Position numbers and translations under genes: made by a program
Source: Novakomyces olei
Taxonomy: Eukaryota; Ascomycota; Novakomycetes; Novakomycetales; Novakomycetaceae
NCBI GenBank assembly: GCA_016906335.1
Contig: JADEYG010000003.1
Span: 1-64,000 of the forward strand
Direction of reading: 5' to 3'
DNA length: 64,000 bases
Shown here: piece by piece, positions 4,581 through 62,475 of the stretch
Layout of the letters: the number at the start of each line of letters is the position of its first letter
Position numbering within the stretch: the first letter of the stretch is position 1
Notes under the pieces: generated by a model
Seen by the model: only the letters and a program-made list of their open reading frames with translations
Databases searched by the model: none
Told to the model about the DNA's origin: nothing

Positions 4581-5635
4581 CTCTCCCTCCCTTTCATATC
4601 CAACAATCTCAATATAATTCTCTACTCCATTCGATCATAAATAACCCTAACCCTAAATAAATTACACATTATTATACATACATTATTCCTCCATACATTA
4701 TTCCTCCATACATTATTATACATACATTACTTTACAATAACTTTACAATACATTATTCTACCATATATTATTATACCATACATTATTATACCATACATTA
4801 TTATACATACATTATTCCTATCATTAAATTACCATACATTATTATACTATACATTATTATACATACATTGCTTTACAATAAATTATTCTACTATACATTA
4901 TTATAATGCCACATAAAATGCATCCTGCGCCGTCATGAGCTTTTTATAAATCTTTAAACCCATATATCTCCATAATTACTAATCCAATCTTGTAAACAAA
5001 TATATATTTACACTCTTACTGCTCCCCTCTATCCAACCATACACTTTTTGTAAAAACACTTGTTCTTTCGACGTTTTGTCACCTCTACACATGGACTACA
5101 CACTCTTAATTTTTCTTATTTTTCTGACGTTTTTCTTATTATACTTCTATTACTATGTTGCCCTCTCTATAATATTTATATTATATTATCAGATAACTAT
5201 AATATGTGTAGCACATCTTGTATAATAAATATATTATATAAATACAACAACCCTACCCTCGCCGCAATATGGTTTGCCAATGTTTTGGAATTAAGGCGGA
5301 AACTATTTTTGCTCTTACGTCGATCTTACCCCCGTTTATGCCAATTTCCTTAGCATTCCCGCGCAATTTCCCATATTATAATTTGGAATTTAGTCGGAAA
5401 ATTCTCCCTAAAAAACCCTGCCTCCACGTTTCTCCTACCATTCTTATTAGAATTACGCCATAATTCGCGGGAATGCTAAGGAAATTGGCATGACCCCCCC
5501 TCATACATTAATTATTTTTCGAAATGGAATTATGGCGTAAAGGAAAAGCGAAAACCCTGACTAGAATTATACATAATAAGAATCGCATTACATAAAAATG
5601 GAATTTCGCCATAATTCCGTCTTGAATATATCTAG
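4581..5635. repeat. Subtelomeric module A, copy 3 (shortened)
   Basis: Third copy of module A. It lacks about 400 nt of the minisatellite part but keeps both ends, the inverted repeat arms (5338-5363, 5466-5491) and the terminal GAATATATCTAG. It abuts the fossil retrotransposon at 5636. Confidence 0.88.
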
Positions 5636-8600
5636 ACTTCGGCCCATCTCGCCTGTCTTCTAGAGAGCTGTTTCGTCGTTGTAAATGTCTGTAAGTTGCG
5701 ATGGTCTGTGTAGACAATAATTGGTATAGCATGACCTTGCAAATACGTTCTCCAAACTTTGAAAGCCCAAACTATAGCTAACAACTCTTTATCATGTATG
5801 TCGTAGTTAGTCTCTGCTGGTGTAAGCTTTCGGCTTATAAATGCAACTGGTCGTCTGCCTTTTTCTGGCCCTTGCGTCAACACTGCTCCGAGTGCAAAAT
5901 CAGACGCATCCGTTTCGATAATACATTGTTGATCTGGGTCATAGTGTTGTAGCATCACATCGCTAACGAAACATTTTTTCAATTTAGCAAAGCTTTCCTG
6001 CTGCTCTGTCTCCCATATAAACTTTTCATTTTTCTTTAGCGTTCGTGTTATCGGCAACGCTATCTTCGCAAAATCTTTTATAAATCTCCTGTAGTAGTTG
6101 CAAAAACCAAGGAAGACTTGAACATCGTGCACAGATCTTGGTGGCTCCCATTGCAAAATAGGTTCCCTTTTATCTGCGCACATCGACACTCCATTCGTCG
6201 ATAAGTTGTAACCAAGAAATTCGACGCTTTCTTTGTGAAATGCGCATTTCTCGTCCTTAGCATAAAGATTATTCTCTCTCAATCTTCTTAATACTTCTTT
6301 CACATCGTTCACATGCGATTCCCTATCGCGTGAAAATACCAAAATGTCGTCCAGATAGATTAACACTTTGTAATCTAATAAATCTCGAAACACATCATTC
6401 ATCAAGTTTTGGAACGTGGCGGGTGCATTGGTAAGACCAAAAGGCATGACCAAATATTCGAAATGCCCGTACCTTGTTCGAAAGGCAGTCTTCCATTCAT
6501 CCCCTTCTTTTATCCTGATAAGATTGTATGCTCCTCTGAGATCGATTTTTGACATAATCTTAACTCCAGTAAGTTTGTCAATAAGGTCATCGATACGTGG
6601 GATTGGGTACTTGTTCTTGATAGTAATCGAATTCAATCCACGATAATCGACACACAATCGTAATTCTCCATTTTTCTTTGGTACAAATAGAACTGGCGCT
6701 CCTGCAGGCGACTTGGAACGACGTATAAATCCCTTAGCCAAGTTCTCTTCCAAATAATCCAATAAATACTTCTGTTCCTTTGGGTTGACACTGTAGACTG
6801 GCCCGAAAGGTACAACAGAATCCTTTGTTAGTTCGATCTCGTGATCGTAACTTCTGTGTGGAGGCAATGTTTCCACGTTCTTTTCTTCAAACACATCTTT
6901 AAAGTCAGTATACTCTGGTGGTATTGTATTTGTAACCATCTCTTCATCCGTGGTAATACTGCTCAACTGTATATTCGAAATTTCGTCTTTCACCGTAGGA
7001 GTACTTGCATTGCGAGGCTTTATAGTTCCATTAATCCAATCAATATCTGGATTGTGCTTCTGAAACCATGGTAACCCAAGGATGGCGTCGTTCTTGCCAA
7101 TATTGGTAACAAGGAATGATTCTTCAGATACAAAACCTTGTACATCGACATGTAGATCCTTCGTCTTTATGGGTACTCCACCTCGTGCAATATGCTTTCC
7201 ATTTGCAACTCTGACAAATATAGGTGTTTTCAGACGTTCGGTCTCGGCCTTAAGTGCCAAAACAGTTCTTGGATTAATAAAATTAGTGTCTGACCCACTG
7301 TCTAGTAGCACTTTAATTCTCTTGCCGTTTACAACACACGACAACTCAAACCTCCCATAAGGTTTATCGTCTGGTGGCTTTTTCTGTGCCATCACCCCTA
7401 GAGACACCACCGTCGGCTCTAGGCTTGGCCTTTTAAATTCTTCGAATCCTCTGCTCTCACATCTCTCGCAGGATATGGTGCAGGACAATACTTCGAAACA
7501 TGTCCTTCTTCATTGCAACGATAACATTTGACCTTAAAGCCAACATGCTTCGGTTTAGCGTTCCTGTTAGCACGGACGCTATCTTTCAAACTTGCTCTTG
7601 TCTCCAAAAAGTCAACTTCCATAGGTGTATAACCAGCCGAGCCCACTCCACGGTACTCCGGTATTCTCTTCACCGTTCTGGTTCTAGCCTTGCTTCGTTC
7701 AAACAAGCGAGTATCAATCTTAACGCATTCTTCAATGAGCTTCTCAAGCTCTTCTGGCGGATCGCGACGAGCCAATTCGTCTTTGATATCCTCTTTAAGT
7801 CCTTCGTAGAACTGCGCAACGAGCGCATCGTTGTTCCACGTAAGCCACGACTTAACACGCTCAAACTCTGTGGCATAATGCGACACGGATCCCTTCTGTC
7901 TCAATAAGCGGATCTGTCTTTCAGCCGTTCTGCGGACGTCCCTGTCCCCGAACATTTTCTCCAAGGTTTGGCAAAAATTGTTAAAATCGTCAAGTATGGC
8001 GCCATTGTCGCTACGGACATGTGGCTCAAACCATTTAAAAGCAACTCCCCTAAGGTAGGAGGCTGCAAACATAACACGCTGCCGATCCGTGCTGTATCGT
8101 TCCGGTTGTCCCGCGATGACCATCTGGACATGGGTCAGAAAATCCCCCGTTTGCGAACGATCGCCCGAAAAGTACGGCGGAGGAGCAAGCTTAGGCTCCT
8201 TGGTGCGCGTGTTGGACACGATTCCATTAGCGGCGCGAAGTCGCTCACTAAGGCTCTGGTTTTCCGTTTCGAGTCTCTCGAGGCGAGCCGTCGTTTGCTC
8301 AAGAAACGATTGTAGCTGCTGATAATCCATCGTAAAAAGCTCGAAGAAAACGTCACAGTCCCCGAATCGTGGACGTGTAATACTGTTATGGTTGTAGAAG
8401 GCGAAAGCCTAAAGGAGAACCCAATTGCCGGATTTCACGCCGGCTCTGGGACTATGAGAAAATTAAGAGATAGAACTGGGTTTAAAAGATTGGGTCTCCC
8501 CAAAGTTCGATTACACGTAGCGAGAAAAGTAGAAGCAGGACCTCTATTTATATCCTCGCTACGTAGAATATTCTAGAAACACTAACTACTTAAACGATTA

Positions 8601-10597: not shown

Positions 10598-11725
10598 TCA
10601 GGCACCCTTGCTTTGCAAAAACTTGAACGTATCCACAATACTCTTCTCCAATGTAATGTAATCGATTCTCAGCAAGTTCCTAGAACGCGAATTGTCATAG
10701 CCACTCAAGGACGCCGGCTTATCCGACTCCATTTTAGCAGGGAGCTTGTCTGAATATTCTGGAAAGTTTTTCTTTACAATCTCGGCCACCTGCTTCATAT
10801 CAAAGTCGCCGGCTATTGTGAAAAATCGCTTTCCACCGGCATCGGGAATCTCCATCGCCCGGACATGCGCAAGAGCGACGTCACGTACATCAACCCAGTA
10901 ATAAGATCCGGTAGGGGGCAGCTTTTCTTTCCATCCACCCTGCGCGAGGGAAACAAGACTGGCATTCGATGTGTTGATCGTGGCCAGTGTAAAGCCCGGC
11001 GGGCAGTTAATTACTGGGCCAAAGACCAAAGGAGGGCAAATGGTGGCAATGTCAAAGCCAGGTTTCTCCTCCGCCACAAATGACCAGGCCGCTTCCTCGG
11101 CAACCTTCTTGCTTGCACGATAGGTTTTGGCTCTATCAGCCAGACCCTCGCTGTACGTAACCGGGTTCCAGTTGCTTTCGCTGTACTCTGCCGGTGGCGC
11201 ATCAGGGTCGACCATAGACGCAAAGGAAGACGTGATAACCACACGCTTGACACTAGGCGCTTTCGTCTTGATCGCGTTCAGAATACCCTTAGTGCCATAA
11301 ACGGCAGGCTCAAGCAGCTCCTTGGGGTCTTGAAATTTGAAGTGAAACGGGCTTGCTGTGTGAAGCACTGCATCAAACGGCGGATCAGACACAACTGCCT
11401 TGTCAAAGGCACCTTCTGCCGCGATATCGGGAACAATCACATAAGAAATTTGGCCGCTCGGAAGATGCGCATAAGCAGCCAAAATGCTTTCGCCTTTTTC
11501 CGCACTGCGCACAGTAGTCACAACAGTATGCTTTTCTGCCAGTAGCGTCTTGCAACGGCAGAAGCCACGGTCAGTACTTTGGGCACGATTCATTCGTAGT
11601 TTGTATGCCTTACCTCCAAAATGTGTGCGGCAATAAAGCCAGAGCCACCTTTGCAAAGAAACTAGTCAGTTTATCCAGATTGTTATGCTGCGGAGCCTCT
11701 ACATACCTGTAACGAGAACCTTCAT
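10598..11725 (-). CDS. GRE2-type NADPH-dependent aldehyde/ketone reductase
   Basis: Extended short-chain dehydrogenase of the GRE2 / dihydroflavonol-reductase-like family, which reduces aldehydes, ketones and methylglyoxal in the cytosol with NADPH. Three exons, 11725-11707, 11648-11614 and 11548-10598, give 334 residues, close to the 342 of yeast Gre2. Exons 1 and 2 join to MKVLVTGGSGFIAAHILE, the Rossmann glycine motif. The catalytic Tyr and Lys lie in TYRASKK, and DVRDVALAH is the usual NSDHL-like signature. Introns have GTATGT and GTAAGG donors and a TACTGAC branch in intron 2. The substrate cannot be told from sequence. As a neighbour of other oxidoreductases it may remove an aldehyde intermediate (inference). 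Confidence 0.88.
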
Positions 11726-17872: not shown

Positions 17873-19879
17873 CTAGTCACCCGCTCCAAAATCAAGCCGC
17901 TCAACCCTCGTCTGGGCCACCACACGTCCGCCAAAGATGGTGAGCCGTGCGGCCGGGGGTCGGGCACACAAGCCGGCGAGCACAGCCCACTTTGGGTCAC
18001 GGGCTTCGAGGGCGGAGCGGTCCGACTGCAGTAGTACAAATGACGCCTCGGCGCCTGGCTGCGGTATGAGAGGCACTGCTTGTTTCTTGATCGATGCTGA
18101 CGCGTACTCTGTAACGCAGCGCAGCAGCACATCCAGTGCATCTGCCGTGGCACTTTGCTGAACTGCAATTGAGAGCGGCAGCAGCTCGAGCGGGTCAGCC
18201 GTGCCCTGTGGTGTAAACGCATTTGCCACATTGTTTGTCGACAACGCAACACTGAAGCCGCACTGCTGGAGCAGTAGTACGGGCATTGTGCCCCGCGGAC
18301 GTAGAATCCCGCTCTCACGTCCCATCATATATACATCGCTCGCCGGCAGCCCCACAAAGTGCACATTCACAGGACTGGTACTGGTACTAGTACTAGTAGT
18401 ACTGGTAGTGCTAGTAGCGCTAGTAGTGCCAGTAGTGCTAGTAGTGCTAGTAGTGCCAGTAGTACCACGACTAGTAGTAGCTGGGCTATTAGTGGCTAGG
18501 CTATTAGTGGCTAGGCTATTAGTGGCTGGGCTATTAGTGGCTGGGCTAGCACCAGCAGAGCCAATAGGAACAGAACTAATAGAGCCAGTGGGGTTAGTAC
18601 TAGCAGTAGCAGTGGCAGTCCTGGGACTAGTAATAGCATTAGCAGAACTATCAAGACTACCGTGACTGACGATGTCACTGACATTGCACCGGCGGGCTAA
18701 AAATTGCAATTGATCTTTGTTATACAGACACAGCTTTGTCATATGTCCGAGTACAATCTTGCGCAGAGTACCGTCGCGATGCCGAGGCAAACGGCTCTCA
18801 CCTGCCCGTTGTAGCACATAGGGCAGCAGTGACGGGCGGCTCGGGTCCAGATCGTAGTCCAGGTGGAACTGCACGTCCAGATCAAACTGCTCTGCCAACT
18901 GAAACACGGTATCGATGTTGCGCTCCGGACACGTGTCGACGTACGGGGCAGAGCCGATGGCACACACGGCCGGCTCATCCGCATAGCGAGAACACGCTTG
19001 CTGGAGCAGCTCCGTCATTGCCGTACCCGAGACTGCTCCACCTGTTGCGTCTTCGTGCTGGAAAATCGCGTCCTGTGCAAACACGGCCAGACGCAAATCG
19101 ATGCGGTCCTTGAAGCGTCGGCTCAAAGCGACACACTCGTCTAGACACAGGAAGCCTACCGTTTTGTCGACCTCTACGTGTGACATCATGAGGGATACAC
19201 CGTACCCAATGGCCTCCTGCAACAACCGTTGGGCCCGTGCTTGCACATCTGCCGCAGTGAAAGCCGCCTTTTGTCGAGCCGTTTCCCTTAGCGCTTCCCC
19301 AAAGTCACTGTCGCCTTTGTTAGCCTCATCGCAGGATTAATCATTAATTCATTCCCAGACAAACATTGTAATAAACAAAATTTTAGACTGAAAATATTCG
19401 TAAATCATTAAATGAAGTTTATAAATCTTAACAGTTAAGAAAATCAATAAGCAAGAATCAAAATTGATCCAAATACTCAATTCTAGCAACTGCGCGAAAC
19501 TAAATTAAATGATCCAAAATCAAGTAAACAATTATTGCTCAGATGCGGATATTTTATTTGAAAAATGCAAATTAAAAAGGGCGAAGCTGAAAACAAGCGT
19601 ATCAATCTTTACTCACCCCGTGCGTAAAACTGCGTCGCTCAGCAAATGACACTTGTCAATGTGCATGTGGGCCTGTGTTAATCCTGGCAATACAATGGCA
19701 GCCCTGGCATCGACCACGCTGCCCGAGATCTCAGCATTTGGTCCCCAAATCGCAGTCGCCTGTGTACCCTCCGTCTGCTTCTCCACAGCTTTAACAGCAC
19801 CATGCTCTAAATGTATCGTGTACAGCGAGCTCGCATCATGCAGCAGCACGCAATTGCGCACTATCCGTATGTGTTCCAT
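17873..19879 (-). CDS. Cytosine-deaminase-type amidohydrolase with Ser/Thr repeat insert
   Basis: Metal-dependent amidohydrolase, related to bacterial CodA-type cytosine deaminases. Exon 1 (19879 to about 19617) ends after the metal-binding AHMHIDKC motif. Exon 2 (about 19330-17873) carries SHVEVD, the QFHLDYDLD block, GHMTKLC and a C-terminal FGGRVV segment. An insert of roughly 95 residues of repeated (P/L)ATNS and (S/G)TT units, encoded by 18362-18660, interrupts the catalytic domain. The roughly 280-nt intron begins with a good GTGAGT donor, but the only nearby AG acceptor (end of GATGAG, about 19324) leaves the wrong frame. The match resumes in frame with GAT GAG GCT AAC. So the junction is either unusual or damaged. 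Substrate unknown: a cyclic amide or amine on a ring is typical of the family. Confidence 0.78.
18362..18660 (-). repeat. In-frame coding minisatellite in the amidohydrolase
   Basis: A run of 15-nt units (GCTATTAGTGGCTAG on the + strand, four copies near 18485-18545) and 9-nt GTA/CTA-rich units, read on the minus strand as (P/L)ATNS and (S/G)TT repeats. It keeps the reading frame throughout. Confidence 0.85.
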
Positions 19880-39520: not shown

Positions 39521-41682
39521 TTAAACCTGAACTCCGGAGAGCGTGCGCTGATTGCTTACAACAAAGTCGTTCTTTTCGTCATCCAGGCCATCATGCAATT
39601 TGATATCGTCTTCCGCCCTCTCTTCGGGGTCCGAATAAATAACTTGCAGTTTTAGGGTTCTCTTATCATGCCACCAGACTACCCCAATCCATACGGCCAA
39701 GCAAATGCTTACAACAATCATCGTTATTGTTCCTTTACGGAATCCCTTTATTGTAAGCCATTAAATCAAATTCAACCTGACATACAGTAGCTGCATCCGT
39801 AGCAGGGTAAAGGGCAACTCCCCAAAATGCGTAGAGAACCGAAGAAGCGCCTTTAGCAGTTAGAAGTGTAATATTGGCGAAAAATTAAATTTAATTCCTA
39901 ACCGTTCATTGAATAAAGTGTGACAGCCCGTGCTGCATCATCGCCGGACCGGGACAAAATATGGCTCGCCCATGTGAATACAACAGGCTGAATTAAGTAT
40001 GCGGTTCCCGCTAAATCTGGAGGCTCAGTAACTTATCTTCAGCTTTTTGTCTACTTACAGTAAGCAGCCATTATTCCATGGCTACCGACTGAGTTCCAGC
40101 ATAGGAGTACAATACTTGCAACGATCTGCACCATGCAAGCAAAGAGACCGTAAGGACTAATAAAGCCAGTAGCATCTATTGCAACCGAACTACAGAGAGT
40201 CACCACGATACCTTTTTATGTTAGTCTTTAGCCAATACAGAGACTAAAAAAGAAAGACAAATGGTGTAAAGAACCAAAAGAAAATCTAACCAATAGCAGT
40301 GATTCCAAGAGGGTAAGTGTTGTTTTCCGGAACAGAAAACAGCCCTGAAGCTCGCATCCATAGCACCATGCATGTCTGCGTAGAATAGGCCTCTAAAGCA
40401 CCACCAAGCATCCAAAAAATGTTGAAAATCCAGCTGAAAGTTTAGCGATCTGTTAAAAAGAAAAAGCATTACAAATTCGGGGTGAACAAAACACGCTTTA
40501 TAAGCGAAAATCCAATGTTATGTCCATCAGACTGCTTAGGAGGTAAGCGCTTAAGTGCGAGTTCTTTCTCTTGCGGCTTAAGATAGAACGCTTTTGTTGT
40601 TTCGGGAAGATCTGGGAAGAATACAAAACCAAAAATAGCTACAGGAATAGTGATTATTCCATCAATGAAAAATGACTGTTTGTTAGAATATTTTTCTGAT
40701 ATATCATTTTTTAATCTCGTTTTCTCATCATTTCTTTTTGGTTTGTTTATTCTGTTTCCTTTTTATGAAAGCCACATACCCATCTCCAACCAGGCAAGCC
40801 GTTTACACCATCCATTGTTTTCCAAATGGCCGTCATCATAATTCCTGAATTTAGCAATTGTATAGCAATCTGTTTCTATTACCAGCAAACATTGTGCCCA
40901 CCATACCCGATGCTTGGAAAAGGCCAATTCGCTTTCCAGCCTCCGAGCCTTTGTACCAGCTTCCAATGATATACTGAGTTCCACTATAAGTCGAAGCCTC
41001 GGCAATTCCTTGCAAGAACCTAACTGCGGCCAAGCTGGAAAACGAATGACATCCACCACAAGCCATCGTTAATCCAGACCAGACGAGGGTCATCAATGGA
41101 AACCAATACCGAGGAGGCACTTTCTGAATAATTATGGCATGAGGTGCTTGGCCCACAATGTCTGTCATGTGAGCAAATGCTTACGAGAGCAATAACATGA
41201 TATCAAATGCAGAGGCGAGTTAATAAAGAACAAAAAGTAGACCCAAATGTCCGGTAGAAATTTTAATTAGAGCAAAACAAATAAAGAACTTACATCCGAC
41301 TGAAAGGCACGTGACAAGTAGATTATACTCATTGCCAGTGAGGTTAATACTTTCTCGCATGCCTGAAACATAAGCATTTGCGAGAACCGCACGGTCTGAA
41401 ATATTAGTCTCATATAATTTATACATACGACCATTACCTAAATAATTGAAAAAGAAGGCAACACAGCAATAAGTCTGTGCTGTTAGTGAAATTGATCTCG
41501 CTTGTGTTTATACCAAGATGAAAAAGTCAATTTTTTGAAGAAGCTAATATGTCAGCATAAATTTGAGATTAATAGATTTCAGTCCATTATCTGGAGCTAA
41601 TATAACATACTCTGCGTTCCTCCTCAGTATCTGGTGCTTCTCCCCAAATCGCAGTGCGCAATTTGTGTAATCTTGCGCCCAT
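39521..41682 (-). CDS. MFS transporter, anion:cation symporter family (Dal5/Tna1-like)
   Basis: Plasma-membrane permease assembled from about 12 short exons, starting ATG at 41682 (MGARLHKLRTAIWGEAPD) and ending at 39521. Family blocks include KIDFFIL, FNYLDRAVLANAYVSGM, the PPRYWFPLMTLVWSGLTMA and GIAEASTYSGTQYIIGSWY segments, FQASGMVGTMFAG and NNTYPLGITAIG. This is the ACS family, which takes up allantoate, nicotinate, biotin, peptides and sugar acids. It is divergent from the MurQ-like gene, sharing a 610-nt promoter region with two identical CGG-N5-CCG sites. That suggests uptake of a muropeptide or MurNAc-type sugar (inference). The nearby hxn-like group offers nicotinate as an alternative substrate, but the CCCCCAC motif is absent here. 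Confidence 0.85.
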
Positions 41683-41939
41683 GATCAATTATCTTGATTT
41701 GACAGGAAAGTCAATATAGCAAATGGATAAATTCCAACACTAGATCAGACCCTAATGACCACCAGATGGCTCTTAGATAAAACCAAACTTCAGTAGGCGC
41801 GAAGGAACATAAAATTGTGATGCGATAATCAGGAGCGAGATCTTGCGCTTTTGAATTAACTTATCTCTCATAATTCAGCGCTTGACCCCACATGGTCAGG
41901 CGACTGATATATTACTAAACCGATTATGAGTTTCATTTG

Positions 41940-41950
41940 CGGGTTATCCG
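41940..41950. promoter_or_regulatory. CGG-N5-CCG site 1
   Basis: CGGGTTATCCG, an inverted CGG pair of the kind bound by Zn2Cys6 regulators. Confidence 0.65.
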
Positions 41951-42022
41951 ATCAGACGGAACGTTATGATTACTAGATCGAGAAAAGAGCTGCAAAAATT
42001 TTGTAATTAAATGGTGATATAT

Positions 42023-42033
42023 CGGGTTATCCG
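42023..42033. promoter_or_regulatory. CGG-N5-CCG site 2
   Basis: CGGGTTATCCG again, here inside a longer inverted repeat ATCGG-N5-CCGAT. Confidence 0.68.
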
Positions 42034-42294
42034 ATCGAGCTCTAGAGGTCTATTCAAAAAAACTATCGACACACTTTAGCGAAAATGCCGTGTGCCTTTC
42101 CCAGTAGAGCTCGCTTCAGACCCCGAGTTTTGTCCCATCTTAGGCAATCACTCTCTTTACTACTTTGTCAATATAGCTGATAGGGTTTAAATGCTTACGT
42201 TTATTTACACATACGCTCTACCTGTAGCTTTCTTTCTTTTTTTTATCGAGTGGCTAACAAGAATTCAATTGTGAAACAGAGCATTTGCTTGAAG

Positions 42295-43567
42295 ATGCCT
42301 GCATGTGCTATTTTACGTGACCGGACTGCCATTGACCTCGCAGGCCTACAGACAGAGCAGTCTAACGCAAACACTTCGAATATTGACGAGCAGTCAACTC
42401 TTCAATTGTGTAGTACGGTTCTTAATTTCCTAAATGTATTACTAACAGCAACAGAAACGATAAATGAGGAGGATACCACTGTAGCGGCTGCCGTTAAGAT
42501 GTGCTTGCCTCAAATAGCATCAGCTGTGGATATCATTGTTCCACGTATTTTGTCCGGAGGCCGGGTTATATATATAGGAGCTGGTACTAGCGGCAGGTAA
42601 GTTTAAATTTCTTTCCAGTTGCTAATTACAGGCTTGGAATTTTGGACGCTTCAGAAATGTAAACTTATTTTGCTTTTAGCTATATAATTTTTTAGTTTGT
42701 GTATCGGAAGCAAGCTCTAACCAACCTACAGTCCCCCTACTTTTTCTGCACCCCCATCTCAATTTGTGGGTCTAATTGCTGGTGGAGATCATGCTATTCG
42801 AAACGCTGTTGAAGGAGCCGAAGACTCGCAGGAAGCAGCCGTTTCTGATCTGGCTTCTATGGATGTTTGCAGACACGATGTGCTTGTCGGAATCGCATCT
42901 TCTGGGCGTACCCCTTACGTTATTGGCGGCCTGAAATATGCACAATCTATTAGAGCTGCTACAATTGGCCTGGCCTGTGTTAAGCCTAGTGCGCTTTCGA
43001 AGTTTTCCGACATTGTTATAGAGTGTGTTACTGGCCCGGAGGTAGTAACGGGTAGCACTCGCCTCAAAGCTGGGACTGCCACCAAAATGGTAATTATCGC
43101 TTCAGCGCAATATTTTTGAGATGTTCTTCTTTTCTTTTACTGATACCATTAACTGTGCTAATCTTCAGATACTAAATATGATATCGACTGCGTCTCAAAT
43201 TCGTGTTGGAAAAACCTACGGCAATTTGGTAAGTTCATATTATGATGCGAAAGTCCGAGTGAGAGCCTGATCCAGCCTAGTATTCAGGATTTACTTCTAT
43301 GTTTTAATGAATGAGAGCTTATTATAGATGGTGGATCTGAAAATGTCAAATGAAAAGCTGCGTCATAGAGCGAGACGTGTCGTCCGTGCAATCGTACCCG
43401 ACAATCTATGCAAAGACAGAGAAGTGGACGAAATCGTCGCTAAATGTGATGGCCAAGTTAAGCTCAGTATTATCGTGGCTAAACTAGGGTGTTCGCCAGA
43501 GGAGGGAAGAAAAGCACTCGAAGCGTGCTCCGGATCTCTTAGACATGCTCTTGCCTTGCATCAATAA
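42295..43567 (+). CDS. murQ-like: N-acetylmuramic acid 6-phosphate etherase (MurQ-like)
   Basis: Lyase that splits MurNAc-6-phosphate into GlcNAc-6-phosphate and D-lactate; SIS-domain fold, cytosolic. Exons: 42295-42596, 42632-42658, 42732-43089, 43169-43228 and 43328-43567, 328 residues, close to E. coli MurQ (298). The joined protein shows IYIGAGTSGRLGILDASE, then FVGLIAGGDHAIRNAVEGAEDS with the conserved acidic residues, GIASSGRTPYVIGGL, GSTRLKAGTATKMILNM and GNLMVDLKMSNEKL. These are near-universal MurQ signatures. Exon 2 is only 27 nt and intron 1 only 35 nt. The start is the first ATG with family-like sequence after it. Glucokinase regulatory protein shares the fold but is about twice as long. 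It is followed by AnmK, the enzyme that supplies its substrate. Confidence 0.93.
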
Positions 43568-44082
43568 AAAGCATTTAGAACATTTATAGCTTTTATCTCG
43601 AGAATGCTGACTCCATATATAATTTTTCAATATGTATAGCGTTCCGGTATCTCCATAATCACTAGATCCAGAATACTACCCGACCAAGGAATGTCCCGAT
43701 AGTGGGCTCCAATAGGTTATTCGTGACCTGCGTTTGCGATTACTTGATGGGGTATTGGAAAAGGATACGAACTCGGTAGCGATAATATCCGAAAATTGAC
43801 GGAACAGTCCATCGTCGGATAACCCGATACTACACAAGCCGAATGCTACAATCTTAAAAGTGAAAAAAAAAAAATGTAGGGCCACACTGACGTTTTGACA
43901 GCTCTTATCTTTTTGTTTTTAATTTGCGCTTAATGCAAGCTTTCTTTTTTAATTTTGACACCCTCTGATGGCCCTGGATTGACGAGTTGTACGCGAAATT
44001 ATTCGTTTAAATTACCGGTTTGCGCTACCAAATTGACTCTGATGCATCTCTCTCAAATCTGACTGTACTGAGTGCGCTGAGC
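43568..44082. promoter_or_regulatory. Intergenic promoter of the AnmK-like gene
   Basis: About 515 nt holding a third copy of the CGG-N5-CCG site (43816-43826) and a short A-run. No gene is visible. Confidence 0.6.
43816..43826. promoter_or_regulatory. CGG-N5-CCG site 3
   Basis: CGGATAACCCG, the exact reverse complement of sites 1 and 2, about 257 nt upstream of the AnmK-like start codon. Confidence 0.68.
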
Positions 44083-45555
44083 ATGGTCACGTTAAATGTT
44101 TTGGGTTTAAATGGGGGAACAAGCGTTGACGGTAAGCTTTGGTTTGTCCCGTTTTTTTCTTGCCACAAGACACATCGCTAATCTTTCTAGGGGTTGACGT
44201 CGCTCATTGTCGCATTTCATCTGTTGCCAATTCTAACGATGTAAGCGTCGAGCTCGTATCTTACTCTGAAGTGGATATCAGTCCGGAATTGCGATCCCAG
44301 GTACTTCGCTTATGTAATCCTGCACAAGAGGGTGGTCAGACTACAATGGCCGAGGTTTGCGATCTAAATTTTGCACTTGGGAGAGAATTTGCTCGTGCAG
44401 TTAAAGAATCAGGAGTTGATTTAGACCAAATCGACCTTGTTGCTAGTCACGGGCAAACTTTGTGGCATCAGCCAGTTGGTGAAACTCGTTCTACATTACA
44501 GATGGCTGAGCCAGCTGTGATTGCTCAAAAGACAAAAAAGTAGGGCGAAAATTTTACGAATGTCTACTAAATAAAGAACGGTAGTTAGCGGATTTCGTGT
44601 AGCCGAATTAGCTGCGGGGCGACAGGGGGCACCATTATCAGGATTTTTCGAAGCTGCGCTTTTATTAGATCCAAATGTTACCAGAATCGGCCAAAACATT
44701 GGAGGTATTGGTATGTGCAAATTGGAGAACGATTCAGTTTCCGATTCCTCATTTTAATCTTTTTTAATATCTGTGCTAACAGCTTTAGGTAATGCCTCTG
44801 TAATACCCTCGGAGAAATCGATAAAATTGAACGGTCTTTGCGCGAGCTACTTTGCTTTTGATACCGGACCTGGAAATGTATTTATAGACGCCTCTATGCG
44901 TCTTTTAGTCGGAAAACATTTTGACAAAGACGGAGCATTTGGAGCAGAAGGCGAGGCTGAAATTGACCAAGATCTGGTGAATGAGTACCTGGAAGCAGAA
45001 CCTTATTTCCTGCTGAAACCTCCAAAGACAACGGGCCGTGAGCTTTTCTCTGACGACGTTGCGCGTTCTTTAGTTGCGCGAATGAAGTCAACTGGAAAAT
45101 CTACGGCTGCTATAATAGCTACAATTACGCGTATAACCTCAGAATCAATTGCAAGGGCTTATGAACAGTTTGTCGTGCCACAGCTAGGCCCCAACGGCGC
45201 TATCGACGAAATATACATCTGTGGAGGGGGAGCCTATAATCCTAATATTTTGAAGCATTTACAGAAACGATTTCCAGACAGCAAGGTCCTCAAACTTGAT
45301 CAAGCTCCAAACAGCCTTGAGCCAAGTGCAAAAGAGGCGGTTTTGTTTGCTGTTCTGGGATTTTTATGCATATGTGGCCGTACTGTGCCTTTAGCCGCTG
45401 GGTCAGAAAGTACTGAACCGGCTGTGTTGGGCGTTGTTACACCGGCAGAAAACTATCGGAAAATGATGCAAGCCGTGGTTGAAGACGACGATGAGTTTTC
45501 CAGAAAAGGTGTACTGGGGCGCATTATAATGGAACAGAATAAAATGAGAACATGA
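44083..45555 (+). CDS. anmK-like: 1,6-anhydro-N-acetylmuramic acid kinase (AnmK-like)
   Basis: Sugar kinase of the ASKHA fold, 434 residues. It opens and phosphorylates anhydro-MurNAc to MurNAc-6-phosphate with ATP. Exons: 44083-44131, 44191-44539, 44577-44710 and 44783-45555. Signatures: [18 protein letters not shown] at the N-terminus, [61 protein letters not shown], and [18 protein letters not shown]. These cover the nucleotide, sugar and catalytic loops of the family. The first intron splits the GTSVDG motif. Fungal homologues are known from genome annotations of filamentous species. Next to a MurQ-like gene, it forms a two-step path from bacterial cell-wall sugar to GlcNAc-6-phosphate, which can join chitin-sugar metabolism. 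Confidence 0.93.
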
Positions 45556-60370: not shown

Positions 60371-62475
60371 TTATTTAGACCGTTTATAAGGCGGTTCATC
60401 CAAATCTGCTTTCGCATCGTGGCCGGGTTTCGATGCCGAATTACCGTCTATGACCTGCTTGTTCGTTTCCAGTAGAGAATCGTGCCCTCGCTTCTCGCCA
60501 ATTTTTTTAGGTCCCTCGACATAGTCCGGAGGGGGCACAAACCAGGGTATCTTGCCACGCATAAAATCATTGAGCACCATCTTGGCCACTGTACCTTCAT
60601 CCGGCTCACCGCCTTTAAGTAATCGGCCGTGACGCTGAGCAAGCATTGACAGGAACGCTTTTGCTGGATCATGCGCAGTATCCCAATCAGTGACTCCATA
60701 AGTTTTCGTCAAGTGCTTGGCCTTACAACGGCTGATGACATTACTTATGTACTGTTCCGGGTTGGCAACGTTTTCAACACGCACAACGCCTTTAAGCAGG
60801 ATATCCGCGTCCGTATCGGTGTTGCTTGGCGGGACAATTCCAGGACAATCGATAAGAAAAATCCGCCGCATTAATGTAATATACTGCCAAACTTTGGTCT
60901 CTCCCGGAATCGGGGCGACGTTGCATACCTTGCGCTTCCGCAAAGTATTTATTATGCTTGATTTTCCCGTGTTTGGGTAGCCAATCATGCCGACTGATAT
61001 TTGCCGTTTGTCTGAATGGAGAGTAGAGTATTGGCGAAGTAACTGGATCAGTGTGCCTTTGCCAAATGAATTGTTGATGCTCGCATGAAAAGCCAATGTT
61101 GGGCGTTGCCTTGAGAGATATTTGACCCATGAAGCCTTCTCATTAGCATTTATCGCATAAGCCAATTTTCATGTAGAAAACGTCGATATATAGAAAAGGC
61201 AAATTAATGGAAAACAAACAAAAGGCAAATCAGAATAAATACATCAAAATCAAATACATAGAAAAAGTTAAAAAAAAAAAAAAAAGATGAAATTTGTTTG
61301 GTTTTAAACTAAGAACAGTTTCAATTGCTTTTGTTCAAACGAACAAGCAACATCAATTTCTCGATCCATGTTCTACTCTTAAAAAACCGTTGCGCTACAC
61401 GTAAACTTTTCAGAACGAAAAGTCATAGAAACATGTGAGCGCTCTCTCTGCCAAAGTTGTAACAGACCCAGACTGGTAAGATGTGGCACAACGGCCCCTG
61501 TCTGGTCTTGACTTAACTTTGGCTAGCATTGGATGTGTATAGAGAATCAAAAACAATAAACACGCCAAGCTTTGACTTTCCATATAGAAGACAAAAGGCA
61601 AACTCGACTCTATACAGGTCGTTGATAAATGGAAGGAATTGAGAGGTAGAGAGAAAAAAAAAAAGACAAAATAAACTTACCGCAACGCTGGTAGGTACTA
61701 GGTCGCACTTATTCAGAACATATATCAGATGCTTGTGCGGAGCATCATTCTCAATATACTTTTCAACACTGACACAGCGTGTGCCCAATGGATCTCGAGC
61801 ATCAAGAACGTGAATAACAACGTCCGAGGAGTCTATAACTTTGTAGAGTTCGTTCCATATCCGTTTGGACTGTCCCTTTGAAAAAATTGCTTCTCGAGCA
61901 GTCTGAAAAGATCCACTGAATTCGTCTTCATTCTCGTCCTGCTGATCCTCGTATGCATCTTGAGAATCTTCCGAGTTCTTTGCCAGCTCCGTCAAAGAGC
62001 TTGCTACAACTTTAGGCCGTTTGCGTAAAGATTTCGGGCCAAACGTCGTATCAAAAGGCTCGCTTTCAATAATATTTGCTTTCACCGGCCGCTCAGACGT
62101 TTCCAACAGGCTCATTGGCAGCTTGTTCCGTTTCAATAGCACAGTATAAGGATCAGCACTTTGTCCCGCCATCCGTTCTCGGAATTGAGTCAAAGCATCT
62201 TGGCTAATGACGCGTGTGTTGTTGAACCACCGCCGGTCTGGATTCACACGGGCTTTGGGGACCTCTGTTGACTGAAAGGCGGCTTCTTGCACTATATCGC
62301 CCTGAGCGTTGCGTCTAGCATGGCCGCCCTTTAACAAATTTACTTGCTTTGCTTTCTTTGCATCGCGGTAGAAATTTTCGCCTTTAACGCGCAAATTAGA
62401 CGCTTTTGCTGCATTCTCGTTTCCTGCACTTGTCTGCCGCGCTCTTCTATTTGCCTCCTTCTTTCCCGTTCCCAT
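60371..62475 (-). CDS. NOG2: Nucleolar GTPase NOG2 (circularly permuted, 60S assembly)
   Basis: GTPase of 520 residues needed for late nuclear maturation of the 60S ribosomal subunit. Exons are 62475-61681 and 61138-60371 around a 542-nt intron, the longest in the window. The N-terminal NGP1NT region ([19 protein letters not shown]) is followed by the permuted G motifs: [11 protein letters not shown] (G4) first, then [15 protein letters not shown] (G1), and [11 protein letters not shown] (G3). The C-terminus has [10 protein letters not shown] and a basic tail ending PPYKRSK. Length and order fit yeast Nog2 (486). The intron acceptor is placed at GCTAATGAG to give [11 protein letters not shown]. 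Confidence 0.95.

Follow-up and report, generated by a model that had tools for sequence, protein, structure and literature searches.

The first 64,000 bases of contig JADEYG010000003.1 of the ascomycete Novakomyces olei (the window; the start of contig C3 in a genome of 14.34 Mb and 15 contigs) contain, at 39521–45555, three spliced genes with intact reading frames. They encode a major facilitator superfamily (MFS) transporter, a relative of the bacterial etherase MurQ and a kinase of the AnmK family. The transporter gene, probably of the anion:cation symporter (ACS) type, lies on the reverse strand (41682–39521), is divergent from MurQ and encodes 495 amino acids with a PF07690 domain in 12 exons (by coordinate 39521–39745, 39786–39850, 39903–40016, 40059–40211, 40291–40433, 40473–40675, 40780–40844, 40883–41161, 41294–41395, 41438–41474, 41514–41543 and 41611–41682). 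The MurQ gene occupies 42295–43567 on the forward strand (315 amino acids, 6 exons), and the kinase gene follows on the same strand at 44083–45555 (432 amino acids, 4 exons: 44083–44131, 44191–44539, 44577–44710 and 44789–45555). The original prediction of an adjacent, spliced MurQ and AnmK pair beside a divergent permease is confirmed by these gene models. Because the bit scores lie above the cut-offs for MurQ, PF03702 and PF07690, chance is excluded as the source of the family matches. In our view the trio is likely to be a fungal cluster for the import and catabolism of anhydro-N-acetylmuramic acid (anhMurNAc).

Splice sites were chosen with the genomic sequence and alignments to related proteins as guides. 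Each of the 19 introns of the trio follows the GT–AG rule, CTAA lies close to the acceptor in 14 of them as judged from the printed intron ends, and one splice join was corroborated by a homologue, P0001, that was found afterwards. The frames are predicted to stay intact across the 19 introns.

The MurQ protein scores 360.7 bits against the TIGR00274 equivalog model (cut-off 302), and it matches bacterial MurQ at 290 bits versus 80 bits for the glucokinase regulatory protein (GKRP). Its etherase motifs DASE and EGAED align with those of bacterial MurQ and both are intact; we take their glutamates to be the catalytic E83 and E114 of Escherichia coli MurQ. Among the fungal MurQ sequences DASE is present in 36/40 and EGAED in 37/40, with 7 sequences lacking one or both. 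The fungal-named MurQ proteins form a single clade in a tree (100), for which no clear bacterial sister emerged. Score and motifs together suggest that the protein is an N-acetylmuramic acid (MurNAc) 6-phosphate etherase. An alternative is that it is a sugar-phosphate sensor resembling glucokinase regulators, in an incidental neighborhood, since its top Pfam domain is GKRP_SIS_N and two fungal relatives are named "glucokinase regulator". We hold this to be very improbable: the equivalog cut-off is passed, both motifs are intact, the protein is far nearer to MurQ than to GKRP, and the cluster shares the intergenic motif described below. The equivalog score and the intact motifs led us to reject a GKRP-like regulator.

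The kinase scores 239.8 bits against PF03702 (cut-off 24), and a profile search of the genome contigs found PF03702 matches only in the exons of this gene. Its motif FDTGPGN is intact, and it keeps the residues H109, P111, T118 and Q120. The best characterized relative is levoglucosan kinase (LGK), represented in the PDB by 4yh5, 4zlu and others, chains that presumably come from Lipomyces starkeyi. The main rival to anhMurNAc catabolism starts from this match, which is the best in the PDB: the locus would serve the use of levoglucosan or another neutral 1,6-anhydrosugar, with the kinase acting as an LGK that yields glucose-6-phosphate, the transporter carrying the anhydrosugar and MurQ a bystander or regulator. 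The original prediction had read the kinase as an AnmK and left LGK unweighed; that reading is supported by AnmK residues that the kinase keeps and LGK has lost.

The position of the kinase was examined in a careful tree of 55 proteins and a quick tree of 107, which show the same fungal split. The trees were built from fungal sequences of 380–480 amino acids and bacterial sequences of 345–440, with 11 further bacterial loci set aside and the LGK clade (clade B) thinned. In the 55-protein tree all fungal kinases fall in one clade (100/100), grouped with Ktedonobacter (98/92) and placed amid Chloroflexota. This clade splits into the LGK clade (8 sequences, 100/100) and the clade with the window protein (clade A, 97/89), within which the window kinase is nested among filamentous ascomycetes (99/99). 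The mean identity of LGK is 75% to its own clade B and 44% to clade A. Proteins outside the trees were assigned by identity alone, P0008, P0016, P0017, P0018, P0021 and P0026 to clade A and P0074, P0080 and P0105 to clade B.

The residues follow the same split. The prokaryotic sequences come from the best 80 AnmK loci, which include the archaeal-labelled contig L042. H109 is found in 58/58 prokaryotic sequences, 29/30 of clade A and 0/20 of the LGK clade; Q120 in 58/58, 28/30 and 0/20; and T118 in 51/58, 29/30 and 0/20. P111 is present in 41/47 prokaryotic sequences outside the Chloroflexota group and 0/11 inside it, in 29/30 of clade A and in 0/20 of the LGK clade. H109 and Q120 are near the HGQT loop and may take part in MurNAc binding. 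D202 of the D-x-GPGN motif, which we assume to be the catalytic residue of AnmK, is D in 108/108 sequences, LGK included, and does not discriminate. In our reading clade A would be a muramic-acid kinase and the LGK clade derived from it. Because of the tree and the residue comparison we place the levoglucosan reading second, and regard it as unlikely.

Several properties of the kinase count against anhMurNAc as its substrate. Its score is 327 bits to one variant LGK chain and about 319 to the others, at 45% identity, versus 146 bits to a bacterial AnmK. The kinase reached the cut-off of none of the 14 NCBIfam AnmK equivalog models that it matched (best 345.5 bits against a cut-off of 387). The claim that all visible family motifs are kept was too strong for AnmK, since three near-invariant sites are changed: G11 replaces a serine found in 56/58 prokaryotic sequences, E143 an aspartate found in 57/58 and R148 a glycine found in 58/58. 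The changes at the serine and aspartate are a property of clade A, and the change at the glycine is common to both fungal clades. At 55 sites that separate the clades, clade A is bacteria-like at 12 (and weakly at 13 more), clade B at 8 (weakly at 3) and neither at 19; sites at least 90% conserved in 45 other bacterial sequences split 4 for clade A versus 2 for clade B. A Rhodotorula toruloides protein called AnmK, not assigned to a clade, gave levoglucosan kinase activity of 10.65 U/mg in yeast extracts versus 1.25 for the empty vector (PMC9476349), and this favors the levoglucosan reading. On the other side, 4 of the 6 proteins assayed there, LGK included, reached 1.67 to 1.89 U/mg (PMC9476349). 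In Ophiostoma, a fungal AnmK not assigned to a clade is up in mycelium, with a log fold change of 3.67 (PMC4632067).

The transporter scores 116.9 bits against PF07690 (cut-off 33.4). Its best NCBIfam model is TIGR00893, the D-galactonate transporter (115.7 bits, below the cut-off of 395), its best PDB match is also to D-galactonate transport, at 33.9 bits, and its relatives carry the names Liz1 or ACS family. The nearest named families are the D-galactonate and the pantothenate (Liz1-like) transporters. The window protein belongs, by identity and not by tree, to a fungal group of 55–77% identity, several members of which are linked to AnmK or MurQ, while the Liz1-like proteins lie below it at 42–54%, with the exception of one short sequence, P0314. 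Anhydro-MurNAc is a sugar acid, whereas levoglucosan is neutral and no sugar acid; that the nearest solved relative of the transporter moves a sugar acid argues against levoglucosan as the cargo.

The original prediction missed that the set recurs in other fungi, and had called for a search of other genomes for adjacent AnmK and MurQ genes. Such pairs were found, with linkage judged by locus tags, by gene models that run together and by contigs in common, recognized by their equal lengths. In Fusarium lateritium the consecutive tags ACHAPJ_006654, ACHAPJ_006655 and ACHAPJ_006656 are AnmK, MurQ and the transporter, and F. nematophilum has consecutive tags for MurQ and AnmK. MurQ and AnmK are joined in single gene models in F. 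decemcellulare and Paramyrothecium (P0008 and P0026), with MurQ first, as in the window. AnmK and the transporter have consecutive tags in Malbranchea, where MurQ is not among the matches listed, and are two tags apart in F. oligoseptatum. All three genes are on a single contig in Dactylonectria, Cephalotrichum, F. lateritium and the basidiomycete Naematelia. The locus is thus not unique, since several ascomycetes and one basidiomycete have the set in whole or in part. In Aspergillus nidulans, a putative MFS transporter is listed beside a putative anhydro-MurNAc kinase not assigned to a clade (AN3498–AN3499; PMC8762651). No description of a fungal AnmK, MurQ and transporter cluster was found in an open-licence library, a scope that leaves most subscription papers outside.

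Of the clade A kinases, 12/34 are on a listed contig that also carries MurQ or the transporter (4 with both), compared with 0/20 of the LGK clade; with the two joined models the count is 14/34 versus 0/20 (Fisher p = 0.0008). P0015 (no contig) and P0035 (short) were left out of clade A, and clade B comprises the 20 named sequences only. The count drew on 41 of the 120 MurQ sequences listed (those that look fungal) and on 119 of the 120 transporter sequences listed (P0259 has no contig). One contig is named per sequence, and unmatched sequences are therefore uninformative. An intact MurQ, which has no known role on glucose-6-phosphate and whose linkage to the kinase recurs in other fungi, fits poorly with levoglucosan use.

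The two intergenic regions of the cluster share a 12-mer, CGGGTTATCCGA, that consists of two facing CGG half sites with a five-base gap (CGG-N5-CCG). The first copy (CGGGTTATCCGA, 41940–41951) and the second (42023–42034) are on the forward strand between the transporter and MurQ, and the third (43815–43826) is on the reverse strand upstream of AnmK. There are four exact copies of CGGGTTATCCGA in the 14.34-Mb genome, three of them within the 1127 intergenic bases of the cluster and the fourth within an open frame of 1804 amino acids on C1 (glutamate synthase by eye). One copy with a single mismatch occurs elsewhere in the window, at 10715. When both intergenic regions were shuffled, some 12-mer occurred three times in 1/3000 shuffles. 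Repetition of a 12-mer as such is not rare, because threefold 12-mers are also present in 38/199 other overlapping window stretches; by eye these are simple or tandem-like repeats. The trio is apparently co-regulated through the CGG-N5-CCG element, and the factor that acts on it is probably of the Zn2Cys6 (zinc-cluster) type. The features of a fungal metabolic cluster are present: adjacent genes, linkage in other species and, here, a motif common to both intergenic regions.

Nine copies of the 11-base core of the motif lie outside the cluster, 7 in open frames of 208–1804 amino acids and 2 (L100 and L102) in no frame longer than 92. Two near-identical stretches with an alpha-glucosidase-like frame, near the end of C7 (L105) and at the start of C8 (L106), have one core copy each, in an upstream open frame, and are apparently a duplicated subtelomeric block.

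Candidate genes for the downstream steps lie elsewhere in the genome. C9 carries NagA-like exons and C3 NagB-like exons, and the FAD-oxidase C-terminal family, which includes D-lactate dehydrogenases, has matches at three loci. The genome has a second MurQ, on C5 (L095:5455–8050; 401454–404049), that reads without a stop into a kinase-like domain and, joined by hand, scores 322.6 bits with TIGR00274 (cut-off 302). The best PDB match of the kinase part is the MurNAc/N-acetylglucosamine (GlcNAc) kinase MurK (8zo3), at a weak 49.5 bits, and the scores to hexokinase (46.3 bits) and to GlcNAc kinase (42.3 bits) are little lower. Compared with MurK, this domain is only weakly similar, is fused to MurQ and lies outside the window cluster. 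The fusion is a possible one-protein path from MurNAc to GlcNAc-6-phosphate, which in this fungus may be reached from both MurNAc and anhydro-MurNAc.

On C9 (L096, 869000–878900) the NagA-like gene stands beside a hexokinase-like gene and a GH3-like one, with an acetyltransferase-like frame after the latter (names other than NagA by eye), and the locus is perhaps a GlcNAc catabolic cluster. Such a fungal cluster, with hexokinase, deacetylase and GH3, is known for Trichoderma. The Trichoderma-type cluster shares the GlcNAc-6-phosphate intermediate with the path proposed here; it differs in serving chitin sugar, in its location elsewhere in the genome and in having no AnmK or MurQ in the 9.9 kb examined.

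Beyond the kinase, further observations weaken the case for an anhMurNAc cluster. The partner lists comprise those MurQ and transporter sequences that are most similar to the window proteins, which biases the linkage count to clade A; partners of LGK-clade kinases could be missing from lists built in this way. Mariannaea, with the kinase and transporter on one contig and the listed MurQ on another, departs from simple linkage. The 11-base motif core has 12 copies in the genome, 3 of them in the cluster. A wider regulon was considered and rejected: at up to two mismatches the motif is absent from the second-MurQ and NagA loci, and the NagB locus has a single site with two mismatches. The NagA-like and NagB-like matches, made exon by exon, all stay below the curated cut-offs, which apply to complete proteins. 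The genome has no match to GH25, Amidase_2 or SLT in an exon-by-exon profile search, which a heavily split gene could escape.

Digestion of peptidoglycan by the fungus itself was rejected as far as these three hydrolase families go, and their absence from the matches makes scavenging likelier than digestion. The same lack of matches to three families of hydrolases able to free the sugar is consistent with detoxification or sensing, in which muramyl compounds would be phosphorylated and cleaved as signals or inhibitors and not as food, and bacterial muropeptides do signal to some fungi. A linked transporter and genes leading toward fructose-6-phosphate suit catabolism better, and we consider detoxification or sensing quite improbable.

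The proposed anhMurNAc pathway would run as follows. The divergent MFS protein would import the sugar acid anhMurNAc, and the AnmK-family kinase, to judge by its family and motif residues, would open the 1,6-anhydro ring and phosphorylate the sugar to MurNAc-6-phosphate. MurQ, intact and above its cut-off, would cut the lactyl ether to give GlcNAc-6-phosphate and D-lactate. The NagA-like and NagB-like proteins would then convert GlcNAc-6-phosphate to fructose-6-phosphate and ammonia, and oxidases of the D-lactate dehydrogenase type would consume the D-lactate. The CGG-N5-CCG element, with a putative Zn2Cys6-type factor, would co-regulate the trio. The fungus would scavenge wall sugar freed by bacterial turnover, with digestion of walls of its own accord less probable. 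The original prediction of a cluster for feeding on bacterial wall fragments is in keeping with the linkage, the near-private motif, the etherase motifs, the AnmK residues and the downstream genes; "wall fragments" was too wide, and free anhydro-MurNAc released by others is the more likely substrate.

Muramic acid is regarded as a bacterial currency, and the two enzyme genes of the trio have bacterial counterparts. Ktedonobacter (L015) has AnmK and then MurQ, directly adjoining, and a MurQ match was found in the flanks of 20/80 of the best prokaryotic AnmK loci; no relative of the window MFS transporter was found in these 80 loci. Bacterial recycling loci such as that of Ktedonobacter share with the window both families, their adjacency, the histidine and glutamine of the kinase and the etherase motifs. 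In contrast, the window genes are spliced, are ordered MurQ then AnmK and are linked to an MFS transporter, the kinase is changed at three conserved sites, and the host fungus makes no peptidoglycan. LGK shares with the window kinase the common fungal branch of the AnmK family and the G-to-R change; it differs in belonging to the sister clade, in lacking the H, P, T and Q, and in that MurQ or the transporter appears on the listed contig of 0/20 sequences of its clade. The kinase tree points to descent from bacteria, with a Chloroflexota-like donor.

A later move of the kinase gene between fungi is possible. A housekeeping exon of the window, which encodes a Nog2-like GTPase (60371–61168), scores 335.8 bits to 3jct versus 289.2 to 8pv1, chains that we take to be from Saccharomyces cerevisiae and Chaetomium, respectively, and gives a hint of a yeast-like lineage, whereas the kinase nests among filamentous ascomycetes.

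The window starts with a telomere-like array (1–115) of a 10-base unit, CTAACTAACC (GGTTAGTTAG), that differs from plain TTAGGG and resembles the 10-base telomere unit of Yarrowia. Gene content turns over in such subtelomeric sites, and the trio could in principle consist of chance neighbors or decaying genes. Frames that are intact across 19 introns, linkage in other fungi and the shared motif speak against this; already contradicted by the conservation, it is the most improbable of the explanations considered.

Retrotransposon-like open frames from the list of open reading frames lie near the telomere (5632–8408, reverse strand). Between the telomere and the trio, 10598–37793 is a run of subtelomeric genes that look catabolic, with Pfam matches to a FAD monooxygenase, a 2-oxoglutarate oxygenase, a fungal transcription factor and an old-yellow-enzyme-like protein; a reductase, a P450 and an MFS protein in the same run were named by eye only. 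A polysaccharide deacetylase exon (PF01522; 25725–26372, reverse strand) is about 13 kb from the cluster, and an open frame of 487 amino acids at 17873–19336 (reverse strand) contains long repeats rich in Thr/Ser and matches no Pfam family.

Taken more broadly, we lean, with modest confidence, toward the view that many fungi carry a horizontally spread, transcriptionally private regulon for a bacterial wall turnover sugar. The LGKs would be an offshoot that lost the muramic-acid-binding residues after entry from a Chloroflexota-like donor, and the trio would have moved between fungi, here into the subtelomere of a yeast-like fungus. If this is true, the levoglucosan kinase of biotechnology would gain a natural origin, and the odd fungal annotations AnmK, MurQ and "glucokinase regulator" would be accounted for. 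It would also explain why murQ was placed in the chitin pathway in Monascus (PMC9159588). The cluster would then offer a genetic handle on fungi that eat bacteria or bacterial remains.

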